A DNA stretch of 64,000 nucleotides from Streptosporangium album (GTDB lineage: Bacteria > Actinomycetota > Actinomycetes > Streptosporangiales > Streptosporangiaceae), in the NCBI RefSeq assembly GCF_014203795.1, contig NZ_JACHJU010000005.1, forward strand, positions 186,001-250,000. Direction: 5' to 3'. Both the position numbers and the translations under genes were made by a program. Of the stretch, positions 54,232 to 61,431 are shown piece by piece (positions within the stretch are counted from its first letter, which is position 1; every line of letters starts with the position of its first letter). Under the pieces are notes generated by a model. The model ran no database searches, was not told where the DNA came from, and saw nothing but the letters and a program-made list of their open reading frames with translations.

Positions 54232-55890
54232 CTTGCGATTTAACGTCACTCTCGGTGTTCGTTGCCGGTCGTTACGGTCTTTCGGTAGGGCGGACGCTTG
54301 TCCTTCGGCCGGTTCCTTGATCCTTTTGGGCGTCCGGGTCCGGGTCGGGTGAGTTTCGGCGAGCCGGCGGGCGTCCCCAATTTCGCACGGAGACGGCGAA
54401 AGCCGAGGCGGACCCGGTACGGGCTGAGCGGCCTTCCCGGTTCGGGGCGTGGATGCCAGGGGCGGCGCAGGTCATCGACGTGCGGGCTGGCCAGCCGGAG
54501 TTGGGCGTAGGCGGCCATGATCAGATGCATCCAGCGGTCGGTGGCCTGCGCGGAGGAAAGGTGGGCGCGGGCCATACCCAGGTAGACCTTGGCGAACCGG
54601 TGGAAATGCTCTTGGTCGAAACGACGCAGGTAGGCCTTCCACAGCAGATCCACCAGATCCAGATCGACCTCGACGGGCCCGGCATGCCACAGCCAGAGAT
54701 CTTTGGTGGGCTTGCGGCCGTCGGGCAGCCGGTCCACGACGATCTGCAGGACGGTACCGCGCACGATGGGCAGCCGCTCATCGGCGGGGTGACCGGCCCA
54801 GCGACCGGTGCGGGTGAGCTTTTGATGCAGGCCCTTCCACGCGCGTACCCTCACGGTGCCGTACCGGGCCGATCCTGCGCTCAGGTCGATGTCCGGGGCA
54901 TACCGCTTGGCCGCATCCGAGCAGGAGAACTCCTGGCCGTGACGCTTACCCGCGCCCATTTCGCCAGGTCGCCGGGGTTCGGGGTCGGCGTAGAAGACGC
55001 GGGTGGCGCGCAGCCGAACCAGGACCTGAACGTGCCGACCGGTCAGCGCGTGGGAGATGTCGGTGGCGTAGTTCCCGGCGTCCAGCATGATCAGCGGCGG
55101 CGGATCGCCCCCGGTGAGCCGGCCGGTCGACTCCAGGTCCGCCAGCAGGCCGGTGATCTGCTCGATGGTGACATCGGTGTGCTCCTGGCTCGGCCGCAGC
55201 CGGCGCGCCTCGATCGGGTCCACCCATGAGGAGTCTCCCCACTGCACACCCACCAGCAGGCTGTAGGGCCAGCCGGGCAGGAACTTGTCGCCGCCCTTGC
55301 CGCGTACCTGCACCATCACCCGCTCGTCGGCATATTCGGCGTCGGGCCGCGCGTCCGGCGTGATGTCCAGCGCGAACATCAACGGCTCGCCCGGCCGGGC
55401 CGCGGCAGATACCCCGAGCAGCAGGCGCCGCAGCCCGCCCGCGTCGATCCGGCCCTGATCCAAAGCGGCGTAGACCGAGCCGTGCCCGCGGCGGAACTCC
55501 GGCTCCATCGACAACTCCACCGGCGAGCGCACCGGCCCCTGCGCGCACAGCAACGCATCGGTGAGCTCGAACAACGCGTCCGCCCGGCGCCACAAGAGCC
55601 GGTGGAGGCCGGCCCGGAAATCGATCAGGGGACGAAGATGTGACCGACCGGATGCCCCAATGTGCTCCGTCACCTCGCGCGCTGCTGCGATAGTCGGCAT
55701 CTGCGGCCACCTCTCGGGTCTCCGGCGTCTTGACAACACCGAAGATGGAGATGGTGGCCGCTCTCTTGGGCGCGACACGCCGTACCACGACGGTTACATT
55801 CCGGTGCATCCCGCCATGTCGCGATAGTCCTACTATCGGCCGCTATCTGCCCCAGACTGCACCAACATCCGGACCTGCTTAAATCGCAAG
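54232..55890 (-). mobile_element. Full-length insertion sequence (parent type of the deleted copy at 14.9 kb)
   Basis: 1659 bp bounded by CTTGCGATTTAA and its inverted copy TTAAATCGCAAG. It has one transposase gene on the minus strand. It abuts the GH4 stop codon on the left and a truncated reading frame on the right. No clear target duplication is visible (TTA occurs near both flanks but offset by one base). Confidence 0.85.
54246..55700 (-). CDS. DDE transposase (IS701/IS4-like, NF041680-type)
   Basis: About 484 residues from ATG 55700; the frame is open to 55778. N-terminal ADALFELTDALLCAQGPVRS, then LSMEPEFRRGHGSVYAAL. DDE-like positions are MFALDITPDARPDAEYAD (Asp after a strand), PLIMLDAGNYATDISHAL (second Asp) and the C-terminal YLRRFDQEHFHRFAKVYLG (Glu). 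The very basic tail (RPKGSRNRPKDKRPPYRK) probably binds DNA. I assign the family from these features and memory of actinobacterial transposases. It could mobilise the deleted copy in trans. Confidence 0.75.
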   Translation of the reverse strand: MPTIAAAREVTEHIGASGRSHLRPLIDFRAGLHRLLWRRADALFELTDALLCAQGPVRSPVELSMEPEFRRGHGSVYAALDQGRIDAGGLRRLLLGVSAAARPGEPLMFALDITPDARPDAEYADERVMVQVRGKGGDKFLPGWPYSLLVGVQWGDSSWVDPIEARRLRPSQEHTDVTIEQITGLLADLESTGRLTGGDPPPLIMLDAGNYATDISHALTGRHVQVLVRLRATRVFYADPEPRRPGEMGAGKRHGQEFSCSDAAKRYAPDIDLSAGSARYGTVRVRAWKGLHQKLTRTGRWAGHPADERLPIVRGTVLQIVVDRLPDGRKPTKDLWLWHAGPVEVDLDLVDLLWKAYLRRFDQEHFHRFAKVYLGMARAHLSSAQATDRWMHLIMAAYAQLRLASPHVDDLRRPWHPRPEPGRPLSPYRVRLGFRRLRAKLGTPAGSPKLTRPGPGRPKGSRNRPKDKRPPYRKTVTTGNEHRE

Positions 55891-56035
55891 TTATGTATTC
55901 AGCGGCAAAACCTCGCACACCTCCGTGGGCTGCGCGACCGACGCCCTCCGCTACTACGGCCCGTCGGCGATCGTCCAATGCCGCAACGTAGGCACCTTCC
56001 CGACCAACCATTACGAACTATGGGTAAAGCCGTAG
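55891..56035 (+). pseudogene. 3' fragment of a gene truncated by the IS
   Basis: Immediately right of the IS, a plus frame gives 47 residues (YVFSGKTSHTSVGCATDALR, then YYGPSAIVQCRNVGTFPTNH) to TAG 56033-56035. Two Cys 16 residues apart and aromatic-rich strands suggest the end of a small secreted protein. The 5' part is absent on the other side of the IS, where the GH4 gene stands, so a deletion accompanied the insertion. Confidence 0.5.
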
Positions 56036-56120
56036 CAACACGCCACGGCCTCTAGTTCGGCCGTCCCGCCGAACCTGCGAACACTTTCGACTCCTCGGTC
56101 AGCTCCAGAGGCTACGGGAG

Positions 56121-56154
56121 GGCCCCTGTCCCCTGCGGGCGGCGGGGGCCTTTT
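56121..56154 (+). terminator. Rho-independent-type terminator
   Basis: GGCCCC... pairs with ...GGGGCC (56121-56150, with a further GTCCCC/GGGCGGC inner region), directly followed by TTTT. It would end transcription of the truncated gene. From 56155 to 56384 I see no gene apart from a doubtful short frame ending MDLYVQVTGRTASGNNEIA at 56320. Confidence 0.6.
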
Positions 56155-56316
56155 GCGTACGGGGGTCCAGGACCTTCGAAGGCTTCCGGTCGCGATCATC
56201 GGCGGTCAAACCGATGCTCACCAGGACCCGGGTTCGACAGATCATCGGGCTTTCGGGGACATTATGGATCTGTACGTGCAGGTCACAGGCCGCACGGCTA
56301 GCGGAAACAACGAAAT

Positions 56317-58171
56317 CGCCTAGTGACACGCTTTCGCTCTAAGACGGCTATTTACGCGGGGATATAGCGGTATCGTCTAGTGGCATGTACGTGAAGACTG
56401 CGACCCGGCGGACCAAGGATGGCCAGGAGATCCGCTACCTCCAACTGGCCCACAACGAGTGGGACGCCGACGCGCAGCGGTCCCGGACCAAGGTGCTGCA
56501 CTCCTTCGGCCGCGCCGACCAGTTGGACCGGGCCGCGATCGAGCGGCTGGTCGTGTCGCTAGGCCGACTGCTCGATCCGGACCGTGCCGCAGTGTTGAGC
56601 GCCCCGGCGGGACTGGAATTCCTGGAGGCACGCCCGCTGGGCGGCACCCACATGCTCGACGGGCTGTGGCGACGGCTGGGCATCGACGCCACGATGAAGC
56701 GGCTGCTGGCCGGGCGGCGGATGGACGCCCGAGCCGAGCGGACGCTGTTCGCGCTGGTCGCCAACCGGGCGCTCGCGCCGTCGTCCAAGCCGGCCGCGAC
56801 CGAGTGGATCAACTCCGACGTGCACATCGACGGCCTGACCGTCATCGACGAGCAGGCCTGCCACCGGGCAATGGACTGGCTGGCCGAGATCGAACCCGTC
56901 CTGGCCAAGGACGTGTACTTCCAGGTCACCGACCTGCTGAACCTCGAAGTCGACTTGATCTTCTTCGATACGACCAGCACGTATTTCGAGACCGATCAGG
57001 CCGATGAGCCCGTCGCTCGCGACGAGCGAGGCCGCCTCCTCGACCAGCCCGCCGGCCCGTCCGCCACCGGCGACGACAACCCAGACGGCGCCGGGGAGAA
57101 GGTGAAGCTGCGCGGGTTCCGCTCCTACGGCAAGAGCAAGGACTCACGGCCTGATCTCCCGCAGGTCGTGGTCGGCATGGCGGTGACCCGCGACGGCATT
57201 CCGGTGCGGGTCTGGTCCTGGCCGGGCGCTACCGGCGATTCGGCCCTCATCCGCCAGGTCCGCGACGACCTGCGCGAATGGACGCTGTCCAAGGTCATCT
57301 ACGTGGCCGATCGAGGCTTCTCCTCCGCCACGAACCGCAAGGCTCTGATGCAAGGGGGCACCGGCTACATCATCGGCGAGAAGCTCCGCTCGGGCACCGC
57401 CGAGGCCAAGACGGCCCTGTCCCGGCAGGGCCGCTATGCCACCGTCGCCGACAACCTGCAGGTCAAAGAGGTGAAGATCGGATCGGCTGACCGCTTCATC
57501 ATCTGCTATAACCCCGATCAGGCCGTCCGCGATGCCGCCGTCCGTGAGCAACTCATCTCCCAGCTGACCGAGATGATCGACGGCACCGACACCCTTAGCC
57601 GCACCAAACGAGCCGATCTCGCCGGAGTCATCTCCACCAAGCCAGGCCTGCACCGTTTCCTACGCCAGACGCCCGGTGGACTACTCCGCGTCGACCGCGC
57701 GAAGATCGAACGCGAGACGAACCTGGACGGCAAGTACCTGCTGCGCTGCAGCGACCCCAGCCTGAGCCCCGAGGATGTCGCGCTTGGATACAAGCAACTC
57801 CTGCAGGTGGAACGAGGCTGGCGCGACATGAAATCGATCATCGACCTGCGGCCCGTCTACCACCGCCGCGAAGACCGCATCCGCGCCCATGTCCTGCTCT
57901 GCTGGCTCGCCCTGCTGCTGATCCGCGTCGCCGAGAACGCCACCGGCCAGACCTGGACCACGCTGCGCGCCGAACTGCAGCGCCTGCACGTCATCGCCTA
58001 CACCGGCCCCTCGGGCGCCTTCCGCCAGTCCACCGAGCTCACCAAGCCCCAGCGCGACCTGTTCATCGCCCTCGACGTCCCCGCGCCCAAGAAAATCCTC
58101 GATCTGGCCGTCGCCGACTGACCGCCGGCCCGAGTCCCGCCTCGCGACCACCTGCACGCCTAGTGACACGC
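56317..58171 (+). mobile_element. IS1634-family element with 15-bp flanking direct repeats
   Basis: CGCCTAGTGACACGC occurs at 56317-56331 and again in the same orientation at 58157-58171, enclosing the IS1634-family transposase gene. IS1634 and relatives are known for variable, sometimes long, target duplications, so these may be the duplicated target. I could not find matching terminal inverted repeats just inside, so the exact element ends are uncertain. Confidence 0.65.
56385..58121 (+). CDS. IS1634-family transposase
   Basis: A 578-residue DDE transposase. N-terminal MYVKTATRRTKDGQEIRYLQ, then VLHSFGRADQLDRAAIERLV is the typical start. The catalytic core has LEVDLIFFDTTSTYFE (first Asp), KVIYVADRGFSSATN (second Asp) and YKQLLQVERGWRDMKSIIDL (Glu), then RPVYHRREDRIRAHVLLCWL. 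The gene looks intact. The start at ATG 56385 follows an AT-richer leader (GATATAGCGGTAT) that may hold its promoter. Confidence 0.92.
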   Translation: MYVKTATRRTKDGQEIRYLQLAHNEWDADAQRSRTKVLHSFGRADQLDRAAIERLVVSLGRLLDPDRAAVLSAPAGLEFLEARPLGGTHMLDGLWRRLGIDATMKRLLAGRRMDARAERTLFALVANRALAPSSKPAATEWINSDVHIDGLTVIDEQACHRAMDWLAEIEPVLAKDVYFQVTDLLNLEVDLIFFDTTSTYFETDQADEPVARDERGRLLDQPAGPSATGDDNPDGAGEKVKLRGFRSYGKSKDSRPDLPQVVVGMAVTRDGIPVRVWSWPGATGDSALIRQVRDDLREWTLSKVIYVADRGFSSATNRKALMQGGTGYIIGEKLRSGTAEAKTALSRQGRYATVADNLQVKEVKIGSADRFIICYNPDQAVRDAAVREQLISQLTEMIDGTDTLSRTKRADLAGVISTKPGLHRFLRQTPGGLLRVDRAKIERETNLDGKYLLRCSDPSLSPEDVALGYKQLLQVERGWRDMKSIIDLRPVYHRREDRIRAHVLLCWLALLLIRVAENATGQTWTTLRAELQRLHVIAYTGPSGAFRQSTELTKPQRDLFIALDVPAPKKILDLAVAD

Positions 58172-58193
58172 CCTTCCGGCGCGTCCTAGGCGT
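58157..58193. repeat. Imperfect hairpin overlapping the right direct repeat
   Basis: CGCCTAGTGACACGC is followed after about 6 bases by GGCGCGTCCTAGGCG, giving an outer 7-bp stem (CGCCTAG/CTAGGCG) and an inner GAC-CGC-rich stem. It may act as a terminator for the transposase gene or be the duplicated target feature itself. No gene is seen up to 58329. Confidence 0.4.
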
Positions 58194-58329
58194 TTCCGCT
58201 GTTCAGGCAGGCATTGATGCCCCTAGTAGAACAATCATCTGTCGAACCCGGGCAGGACAATGCTTAGCGCACGATCCGGTTCCGATGTTCCTCGGACCCC
58301 AGGACAACCATGGCCCGCCCGGTAGCGTC

Positions 58330-59394
58330 TCAGGTGACTTGCCTGGCGTGCTTGATCTCGGCGGCTGGAAACGGCGTCCGCTTGCTCGTGTTGAGCAGGC
58401 GGTGGTGGAACTCGTTCAAGACGATGGCCGCCGGGGCGTGCCGGTCGATGATCGCGGCAGTCGCGGGCGGGACGTCATCGGGCTGTCGCCCTGCGATCCA
58501 TTCCCGCAGGAACGCCTGCTGGTCGAGGTCGCCGCGCAGGTCGTCGAGCAGGTGGTGGTGCAGCAAATGGCCCGTGGTGTAGCAGTGGTCATAGTCGAGA
58601 TGTTCGGACAGGAACGCGGCCTCGGCCACGGTGAGCTCGAAGCCGGAACTCAGGGCAAGTCCGAAGTCGGCGAAGTAGAGCCGCTGGCCGTCGGTCAGGA
58701 TGTTGACGAAATGGGCGTCGAAGTGGACGAGCCCGCGAGAGCTCATGAAGGCGCTTCCACGTGCCAGAGCCTCCTCCACCCAGGGGTACGGCGAGCCTTC
58801 TCCGCTGCCCGGCGCGGCCTTCCGCGAGTCGGCCAGCCAGGCGGCGAGAGTCTGCGGCACGTGTTCCAAGAAGAGCACCAGGCTGGATGTTGAGCGGCCG
58901 ACGGCCTCCAGGCGTTCACGGACGGCCGACGAGCCCTCCCAGTGCGCGACCGCCCCATCGATGCCGCCGAATTCGTCGACGAACCCCTCGGGTGGGGAGT
59001 CGGGCAGCACCCGCCAGTGGTACATCAGCGGAAAGCCCTCATACTCCCGCCCGAGGACCCAGTTGGTGGTCATGGTGTGTACGGCCAGCTCACGCCAGCC
59101 TCCGAACCCGGCCGAGCCCACCCCGTACTGGTAGAATAACGGCAGCCCGAACAGGTTCGCCGTCGAGCGCACGTTCTCCGGCCGCAGCTCGATGTCGGTC
59201 AGCGGGATCCGTTTGATGAAGACCCGCCTCCCGCTGATGTCCATCTCCGCCGATCTGCCGCCGATGCCGGACCCGAGCGCAGTGGCTTCCGTCACGGCTT
59301 GGCTGAGTCGGCGGTCGCTCAGCAGCGACAGCCGGGTGGAGACCGCTCCGTAGGCGGCCAGGCGCGCGGCGTACCGCGAGTCTGGGTTGGGCAT
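58330..59394 (-). CDS. Protein-kinase-fold hypothetical protein (APH-like)
   Basis: About 354 residues from ATG 59394 (AGGAG 11 bases upstream). RRVFIKRIPLTDIELRPEN carries a Lys as in a kinase N-lobe, followed by VLFLEHVPQTLAAWL (hinge-like). The C-lobe has GLVHFDAHFVNILTDGQRLY (HxD with Asn, a catalytic loop) and FADFGLAL (DFG). These are the essential kinase/aminoglycoside-phosphotransferase features, with HFDAHFVNI replacing the usual HGDLHxxNI. The substrate is unknown. It stands alone between mobile elements, so transfer is possible. Confidence 0.7.
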   Translation of the reverse strand: MPNPDSRYAARLAAYGAVSTRLSLLSDRRLSQAVTEATALGSGIGGRSAEMDISGRRVFIKRIPLTDIELRPENVRSTANLFGLPLFYQYGVGSAGFGGWRELAVHTMTTNWVLGREYEGFPLMYHWRVLPDSPPEGFVDEFGGIDGAVAHWEGSSAVRERLEAVGRSTSSLVLFLEHVPQTLAAWLADSRKAAPGSGEGSPYPWVEEALARGSAFMSSRGLVHFDAHFVNILTDGQRLYFADFGLALSSGFELTVAEAAFLSEHLDYDHCYTTGHLLHHHLLDDLRGDLDQQAFLREWIAGRQPDDVPPATAAIIDRHAPAAIVLNEFHHRLLNTSKRTPFPAAEIKHARQVT

Positions 59395-59557
59395 CAGTGG
59401 TGGCTCCTGAGTCTCCCCGCCAGACGTTGGCGAGCTATCGGCGTGATCGGCCCTATTCGACAAGGCCAGCATGCTCTCACAAACGCTCCATTCCCGGAGG
59501 AAGATCAATCGGACATCGCGGTGACCGTCTGGATCACCAATCCCTTTTCACAACTCG

Positions 59558-59594
59558 TTCTCACTCAAAAAGCGAGACCCACCCCTTGTGAGAA
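59558..59594. promoter_or_regulatory. Inverted repeat upstream of the recombinase
   Basis: TTCTCAC (59558-59564) and GTGAGAA (59588-59594), perfect 7-bp arms 23 bp apart, end 15 bp before the ATG at 59609. It could be an operator or part of a resolvase binding site. The segment is noticeably less GC-rich. Confidence 0.35.
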
Positions 59595-59608
59595 ATGTTT
59601 GTGACACG

Positions 59609-60586
59609 ATGCGAGGTGTGGCCGACCTCCCCGCATCCTCCGTGCCCCCTGCCGACCGCGACGCCGACGACGTCGAGCACCACCCGTGCCCGCGCTGCGG
59701 CGTGGCGGCGGGCTCGCCGTGCCGATCCCGTTCCGGCGCCGTCGCCGGGACCTACCACACCGGCCGCTTCACCAAGGTCGGCCGGCTGGCAAAGCTGCTG
59801 CGGGTACAGACCCCTGCCGATCGCGGTCCGGGACAGCCGTGGCGGCCCGGCACCCCGCCACCGGCCCCACTCGCCACGGATGCGCCCACCGCTGACATCC
59901 GGATCGGATACGCCCGTTGCAGCTCGCTGACCCAGGAACTGCAGTCACAGCTGGATGCCCTCGCGGCCCACGGCATCGATCGCGACAAGATCTTCTCCGA
60001 GAAGATCTCGACCCGGGTCCGGGTCCGCCCCCAGTTCGAGGCCGCGCTCACCCTGGCCCGCCAGATCAAGGCACACGCCCCGCACTGCCGCGTCATCCTG
60101 ACCGTGTACGAAATGAAACGGCTCGGCCGCGACGCCGCCGAACTCACCGCACTGGCCGACCACCTGGTCGCGCACGGCCTGGTCCTGGAGATGCTCGGCG
60201 GGCCGCTGGCGGGCCTGTACGACCCATCCGGCCCAGGCCGGATGCTGTTCGCCTTCTTCACCGCGATGGCCGAAACCGAACGCGAAGCCATACGGGAGGC
60301 GACCCTGGAGGGCCTGGACGCCGCCGCCCGCAAGGGCAACCACGGCGGACGGCCCGCCGTCATCACCGAGGACATGCTGCACACCGTGCTGCGCCGCAGG
60401 GCCGCTGGCGAGTCCGTCGAGACCATCCGAGCCGACCTGATCATCCCCACCGGGAAACGCAAGGGCCGCAACCCCAGCCTGGCCAGCATCTACCGCGCCC
60501 TGGCCGAGCACGACAAGGCGCAGGCCTACCCCGACGCGGTCGCCCAGGCCCACTCAGAGTTCGCCGAGCTCACAACAGGAACCTGA
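59609..60586 (+). CDS. Serine recombinase (resolvase/invertase type) with N-terminal zinc motif
   Basis: About 325 residues from ATG 59609 (GTG 59588 is an alternative; neither has a strong ribosome site). Residues 27-50 hold CPRC...PC...H, a zinc-ribbon-like motif common in actinomycete plasmid and phage proteins. The catalytic domain begins near 97: IRIGYARCSSLTQELQSQLD with the active Ser at 105, then YEMKRLGRDAAELTALADHL and FFTAMAETEREAIREATLEG (E-helix). The C-terminal helix-turn-helix (PAVITEDMLHTVLRRRAAGE to NPSLASIYRALAEHD) binds DNA. It acts on short crossover sites to resolve or invert DNA. It ends 48 bp before the first repeat of the inverted CRISPR array. Confidence 0.85.
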   Translation: MRGVADLPASSVPPADRDADDVEHHPCPRCGVAAGSPCRSRSGAVAGTYHTGRFTKVGRLAKLLRVQTPADRGPGQPWRPGTPPPAPLATDAPTADIRIGYARCSSLTQELQSQLDALAAHGIDRDKIFSEKISTRVRVRPQFEAALTLARQIKAHAPHCRVILTVYEMKRLGRDAAELTALADHLVAHGLVLEMLGGPLAGLYDPSGPGRMLFAFFTAMAETEREAIREATLEGLDAAARKGNHGGRPAVITEDMLHTVLRRRAAGESVETIRADLIIPTGKRKGRNPSLASIYRALAEHDKAQAYPDAVAQAHSEFAELTTGT

Positions 60587-60634
60587 CCACACCGCCGCAG
60601 GTCAGAGCTATATGTGTTGGATTCTTCGACAGGA

Positions 60635-61026
60635 CTACCGGGACCCCGTGCGTGGGGAGGACTCCGCCGCGAGGACGAGAACGGCGAGTACTGGCGGCTC
60701 ACCCCCACGTGCGTGGGGAGGACGGTTGCGGCGACCAGGGCGTTGGCGCCACCGACGGCTCACACCCACGTGCGTGGGGAGGACTCCACCACGGGCTCCT
60801 GGTGGACGAACACGCCCGGCTCACCCCCACGTGCGTGGGGAGGACCTCCACGCGGAGGCGGAGGTCGCTCGCGCGAACGGCTCACCCCCACGTGGGGGTG
60901 AGCCGCCCGAGTGCGGTCCGGTGAGCTCACCGCCACCGTCCTCCCCACGCACGTGGGGTGAGCCGACCGCATCAAAGCCGCCCTCAGCCCTCGCAGCGTC
61001 CTCCCCACGCACGTGGGGGTGAGCCG
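60635..61026. CRISPR. Orphan type I-E-like CRISPR array with an internal orientation switch
   Basis: There are seven repeats (60635-60662, 60695-60723, 60756-60784, 60817-60845, 60878-60905, 60938-60965, 60998-61026) and six spacers of exactly 32 nt. Repeats 2-4 begin CGGCTCACCCCCACG and end CGTGGGGAGGAC (29 nt, one mismatch in repeat 3). Repeats 6-7 are the reverse complement (GTCCTCCCCACG...GTGAGCCG; repeat 6 lacks one G). Repeat 5 is a perfect 28-bp palindrome joining two GTGAGCCG-side halves. Repeat 1 is degenerate in its outer half, as in leader-distal ends. The GTCCTCCCC...GAGCCG strand is the usual I-E crRNA strand, so both arms would read outward. No leader and no cas genes are seen. 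Confidence 0.93.
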
Positions 61027-61431
61027 CTGCGTGATCATCGGGTCACCTCCGGACGGACGTCCTGTCGGCGCTGTAGCTGTGGGACCAGGCGTTCGGGGAC
61101 CCAGATCGCTCACACTCCTGCTCGCGCAGCGAGCGCGTCGAGCGCTACCGCAACGCCTCTGCGAAAGTAGACAGCCTCTGTTGCAGGTGGCCGTGGAAGG
61201 CCTTCCCGTCCGGGCAGACGGCAGCAGCGGTCGGGGAGAGCTGGCCATGGGTGCGCCGCTGCCCGTGCGAGGGTGAAGTCGAGATCCGGTGGGTGGTGCT
61301 CGAGCCCGCCGGGTACGCCGTGCTGAGTCCGGAACCCGGGGGACTATCTGCGGACGCAGATCGCGCACCGATTAGGTTTCCGCGCCGCGCCCGTCTGTAC
61401 GTGTGAGATCGACTCACGAGAGGTTGGCACG
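61027..61431. other. Gene-free stretch right of the CRISPR array
   Basis: About 400 bp without a supportable gene. Several frames are open but none has a start, ribosome site and family together. There is no AT-rich leader-like segment next to the last repeat. The right end holds GAGAGGTTGGCACG, the ribosome site region of the gene at 61432. Confidence 0.45.

Follow-up and report, generated by a model that had tools for sequence, protein, structure and literature searches.

How does a CRISPR array come to reverse its strand midway, and is such an array still a working one? This question is raised by a stretch of Streptosporangium album DNA of 64,000 nt (the window), which carries a type I-E-like array at 60648–61026 with 29-bp repeats and six spacers. 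Read letter by letter, the repeats switch strand at a perfect 28-bp palindrome (60878–60905). Each half of this junction unit consists of repeat positions 16–29 and the unit is its own reverse complement, so that two repeat 3′ halves meet there in inverted orientation. The initial annotation of the locus had described both the flip at a perfectly palindromic repeat and a length of exactly 32 nt for all six spacers, and our reading confirms the two observations.

The left arm lies on the minus strand. It comprises half repeat R1 (60648–60662; repeat positions 1–15) and repeats R2 (60695–60723; 29 nt), R3 (60756–60784; one mismatch) and R4 (60817–60845), separated by 32-nt spacers at 60663–60694, 60724–60755 and 60785–60816. 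A further 32-nt spacer (60846–60877) is the left neighbour of the junction. On the plus strand, the right neighbour of the junction is a 32-nt spacer (60906–60937), followed by repeat R6 (60938–60965; one G short), a 32-nt spacer (60966–60997) and repeat R7 (60998–61026). Direct reading suggests a possible seventh spacer of 32 nt together with a highly degenerate last repeat that keeps only GTCCT (61027–61087, plus strand), but this extension is uncertain.

Repeats 1–4 and 6–7 had been assigned to opposite strands, and these strands are correct; the minus-strand "repeat 1", however, is only a half repeat, and the letters before 60648, formerly counted as array, are instead the end of a terminal repeat (60610–60647, minus strand) of a transposon-like element. 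This element abuts and truncates the left arm, and the remainder of R1 is missing beside it. Copies of the terminal repeat (94–98%) are found in G000:C4 (G000 being the window genome) and G004:C47, and their common part ends at GGGACCCC. We take the element ending at 60647 to be Tn3-like. Its end meets R1 exactly at repeat position 15|16 (60647/60648), which is also the position of the junction and may be a coincidence. The region to the left of the array (54246–60586) contains two transposase genes (DDE_5 and DDE_Tnp_1) together with a resolvase that carries a zinc-finger domain of phage type.

The 32-nt spacers directly adjoin the junction unit on both sides and no leader is present between the arms, which bears out the earlier reading of two outward-pointing arms that lack a leader at their inner ends. 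Spacers and repeat 3′ ends (GTGAGCCG) are preserved on both sides of the junction. The 29-bp, partly palindromic repeats and the 32-nt spacers are those of a type I-E array, and in relatives the same repeat family adjoins a type I-E cas operon; both repeat variants occur in the arrays of G007. Even when up to 3 mismatches are allowed, the full-length repeat has no match elsewhere in the 9.0-Mb genome. We considered an inverted duplication and rejected it, since the two arms have no spacers in common. No reciprocal 5′-5′ unit was found within the window, where the left end of the array is lost beside the transposon-like element. With the array region as a whole as query, phages gave one weak match (E 0.5). 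In a plasmid search, each of the best 20 of 127 matches falls within the resolvase portion of the query, and a second plasmid search returned 24 records, all of them weak matches. Rfam returned only two microRNA models, far under their gathering scores, and we took both as chance.

The junction is not peculiar to the window. When the array region was compared by BLAST with 16 genomes of the genus, nine had a match, and among the loci read we found head-to-head arrays in G006, G009 and G011 as well as in the window genome. A first scar pattern, defined as two repeat 3′ halves with 0–14 free bases between them, gave matches in 8 of the 341 family genomes. After this first count, a relaxed pattern was applied and gave matches in 27 of the 341, many of them not CRISPR; those in G231, G003 and seven more loci look unrelated, and the pattern contributed the scars of G018, G024, G316 and G040. 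Counted from matches read in context, with G096:C30 and G239:C63 outside that reading, there are 11 two-armed head-to-head units in 11 separate genomes (the window genome and ten others of the family).

Nine of the two-armed units are 28 bp long (G000, G006, G011, G211, G229, G239, G018, G024 and G316). The G009 junction is a perfect 36-bp palindrome derived from repeats with a GCCC core, and the G040 unit is an asymmetric 32-bp one whose arms consist of one degenerate repeat each, on a contig read only to its end. Perfect palindromes make up 8 of the 11 units. Two others, in G011 and G024, are hybrids: their halves come from two repeat types and end differently, matching the repeats of their respective arms. 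In 10 of the 11 units, including nine of the ten in other genomes, both halves are joined at one and the same repeat position, which yields 28 or 36 bp.

Three one-armed units (G020, 28 bp; G203 and G308, 32 bp each) and three lone hairpins (28 bp at G194:C2:718479; 32 bp each at G179:C55:91894 and G239:C3:10449) were left out of this count. The lone hairpins have the same core and no arms, and possibly reflect an extreme deletion or possibly are ordinary terminators. A wider contig scan covered 12 loci; at eight of them, no array is seen in the roughly 140 bp read to either side.

A BLAST comparison with repeats masked (E up to 0.05) revealed no spacers common to different genomes among the eleven arrays, and the repeat types also vary between scarred arrays. 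Spacers beside a joint should be irreplaceable by acquisition once leader and cas genes are gone, and a common origin should therefore have left common spacers. Since the eleven arrays have none, the joints look like independent events as judged from their sequences.

Two other arrangements are worth recording. Streptomyces sp. NWU339 has two complete repeats that face each other across exactly 33 nt at each of two loci (L074 4338–4428 and L078 2934–3024), as would be expected if a single prespacer had been inserted between two arrays, and that genome has two Cse1 matches. In G006 (L061 9984–11051), the right arm starts with two identical spacers, and its last spacer agrees with the first one of the left arm at 27 of 32 positions.

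Intact loci of the clade suggest where the two arms came from. All nine comparison loci with arrays read on both strands (G007, G213, G018, G159, G027, G215, G162, G177 and G341:C85) have the order minus-strand array, interval with Cse1, plus-strand array. The interval measures 8.1–9.9 kb in the first seven (the ends in G213 are approximate), about 11 kb in G177, where there is an extra minus-strand array, and about 10.5 kb in G341:C85. The stretches of G157 and G341:C100 have arrays of one strand only. In G007, the opposite-strand arrays are 9,042 bp apart and enclose the full type I-E operon cas3-cse1-cse2-cas7-cas5-cas6e-cas1-cas2. A closely similar leader end, GCAGGTCnnnAAGTGTCC, precedes both arrays in G007, G215 and G027, and looser versions of it are found in G162, G159 and G018. 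A Streptomyces avermitilis paper states that most actinomycete I-E systems have two arrays transcribed in opposite directions (PMC4762764). Another paper reports I-E array pairs as almost exclusively in the same orientation, by a convention of its own (PMC12814883).

To relate scarred to intact loci, we compared their flanks with the arrays masked. The right flank of G009 resembles the left outer flank of G007 in pieces over about 6.5 kb (73–81%), and its left flank resembles the right outer flank of G007 over 127 bp. The flanks of G211 match two different intact loci, G215 on the left and G213 on the right. The right flank of G011 matches G215, and the left flank of G020 matches G018 (95%). 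The window array has a transposon-like left flank, and its right flank has a single 41-bp match to G004 (E 0.007). Because these flanks are without convincing synteny to an intact locus, we infer the deletion here by analogy with the relatives, in which it is well supported.

By that analogy, the window array is very probably the scar of a deletion between divergent arrays flanking cas genes. The ancestor would have had the usual layout of the clade, with the type I-E cas genes in the centre, leader 1 and the minus-strand array 1 on one side, and leader 2 and the plus-strand array 2 on the other. A deletion running from within a repeat of array 1 to within a repeat of array 2 would have taken out the cas genes together with both leaders and joined the 3′ halves of the two repeats to form the palindrome. 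What remained would be a frozen array with two outward arms, devoid of leader and cas genes, which the transposon-like element would later have cut on its left.

Absence of cas genes accompanies the scar. The window genome has no match to Cas1, Cas6e or Cse1; in intact relatives, the operon is situated between the two divergent arrays. The models used are of limited reach: those for Cas6e and Cse1 gave matches in 2 of 14 control genomes and none in the E. coli control, and G008 has Cas6e and Cse1 matches and no Cas1 match, so that a missing match may be a false negative. Of the 16 genus genomes, 6 have a Cas1 match and 5 a Cas6e match, and none of the four scarred genomes belongs to either set. 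Across the family, Cse1 was matched in 143 of 341 genomes and in none of the eight genomes of the first scar search.

The repeat is found in 46 genomes. The 35 with at least three copies were tabulated for Cse1, and the 11 with one or two copies, including G020 and G024, were left out; G308, which is one-armed and has Cse1, was counted as unscarred. Cse1 is present in 1 of 9 scarred genomes versus 25 of 26 others (Fisher p = 3.3e-6, shared ancestry ignored). The scarred genome with Cse1 is G018, which has an intact I-E locus elsewhere in addition to its scar, and the lone unscarred genome without Cse1 is G157, the array of which lies near a contig end. Before the relaxed pattern was run, the same table had Cse1 missing in all 7 scarred genomes and in 2 of the 28 unscarred ones. 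How and how often CRISPR-Cas systems are lost is usually judged from absence alone; a joint that records each loss offers something to count. Since 8 of the 9 family genomes with at least three repeat copies and no Cse1 match carry the joint, this may be a main route by which the system is lost.

We then consider how the ends were joined. The repeat folds into a hairpin with a 6-bp stem and a 4-nt loop at positions 12–15, which is no more stable than shuffled sequences (z about −0.9). The joints are located at the two edges of the loop, 15|16 for the 28-bp units and 11|12 for the 36-bp unit of G009, within the ambiguity given by microhomology. Only 8 of the 104 products detectable by the first pattern are palindromic, and 10 same-position joints among 11 would have a p of about 7e-11 under the crude model that all products are equally likely. 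As the breakpoints coincide with the loop edges, we infer hairpin-directed breakage and joining, in which the repeat hairpin would be cleaved at the edges of its loop before end joining. Ku/LigD can join ends. We regard this predicted joining step as quite possible, short of probable.

The same deletion could also have occurred by ordinary microhomology-mediated end joining or replication slippage, with no involvement of hairpins, and we put the likelihood of this alternative slightly under even. In GCAC-type repeats, to which the window belongs, CACGTG provides 6 bp of microhomology at the 28-bp joint, and the window alone therefore cannot separate the joining models. The best direct microhomology is 7 bp and would give 32-bp units, as found in G040. 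This length is seen in 1 of 11 two-armed units and in 4 of 6 one-armed or lone ones (G203, G308, G179 and G239:C3:10449). The one-armed and lone units, mostly of 32 bp, thus fit plain microhomology better, and those of 32 bp may be scars too or ordinary hairpins. On the other hand, the two 7-bp products explain only 1 of the 11 two-armed units, and with the consensus GCCC-type repeat (G009, G229 and G239) the 28-bp and 36-bp joints have just 2 bp of microhomology, whereas 18 other products have more. These GCCC-type cases favour a process led by structure.

It is improbable that the window junction arose when part of one array was inverted through its near-palindromic repeat cores. The initial annotation had proposed that an inversion or strand switch within this core joined two arrays or two parts of one. 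The joining stands, but a deletion is more likely than an inversion in view of the flank synteny of G009 and G211 and of a 5′-5′ partner at only 1 of 15 loci scanned. That one locus, in the Sphaerisporangium genome G239 (TRM90804; L072 7095–7184), is what speaks for inversion: one spacer makes up its whole left arm and is followed by a 5′-5′ palindrome, and the 30-bp 5′-5′ and 28-bp 3′-3′ units around this spacer sum to 58 bp, or 2 × 29 bp, as expected from a conservative inversion. However, one pattern, applied within the stretches scanned, found no 5′-5′ partner at the other 14 loci, which represent 13 further genomes. Moreover, both flanks of G009 and of G211 match intact two-array loci, and the joints of G011 and G024 combine halves of different repeat types. 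In G239 a single-spacer inversion is possible, and we retain inversion for that genome only.

A bidirectional array, as considered in the initial annotation, would give crRNAs from both strands, and Cas proteins might use these in trans. The spacers and repeat 3′ ends kept on both sides of the junction would suit such a function, and scars do occur alongside cas genes: G018 combines a two-armed scar with Cse1, and a full-length Cas1, but no Cse1, is found in the two-armed G229 and the one-armed G020. Nevertheless, this function is not supported and is very unlikely in the window, given a genome with no Cas1, Cas6e or Cse1 match, arms with no leader between them and an R1 reduced to a half repeat beside the transposon-like end. 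By analogy with the relatives, the array is a leaderless, cas-less relic and not a working bidirectional array. Palindromes and short repeats are prone to misassembly, but an assembly error, including the assembly inversion considered at the outset, has a negligible chance of explaining eleven two-armed units with the same context and different spacers in eleven separate genomes, some of them assembled into few contigs (G011 in 1, G006 in 3), and was rejected.

Returning to deletion at the hairpin, we tentatively suggest, with somewhat less assurance than for the joining step itself, that type I-E repeats may be recurrent site-specific break-and-join points, at which a DNA hairpin would be cut at its loop edges; two divergent arrays both cut in this way would lose the leader-cas-leader cassette in one step and keep a palindromic scar. 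If true, CRISPR systems would possess a built-in route to self-deletion, and the scar would be a countable record of each loss. The position of the two-armed joints at the hairpin loop edges makes the mechanism testable at the bench.

The proposed ancestor resembles the divergent two-array type I-E loci of the kind reported for S. avermitilis (PMC4762764), which share opposite transcription around the cas genes and near-palindromic 29-bp repeats; in contrast to these loci, the window is without leaders and cas genes, and its arrays are fused. Loss of a whole CRISPR-cas system by deletion is also known from Staphylococcus epidermidis escapers, but that report ascribes the deletions to transposons, homologous regions and SCCmec excision rather than to repeats of inverted arrays (PMC3784566). 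The predicted breakage at a DNA hairpin has a parallel in SbcCD cleavage at DNA palindromes. That work used a 460-bp palindrome (PMC4245961), whereas the 6-bp stem of the repeat hairpin is far smaller and its cleavage hypothetical. The "inverted CRISPR" described in PMC10883916 is a laboratory construct.

The statement that head-to-head arrays have no common description agrees with our search of the open-licence PMC literature, in which none of the matches listed describes such arrays with a palindromic repeat as their joint. Orphan or remnant CRISPR arrays persist after cas loss, and the window array is like them in that the cas genes are gone and a short array of a known I-E repeat type remains. 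It differs from them in its head-to-head arms, in a palindromic joint within the repeat and in the independent recurrence of that joint. The recurrent head-to-head joint is best read as a variant of the orphan-array kind.
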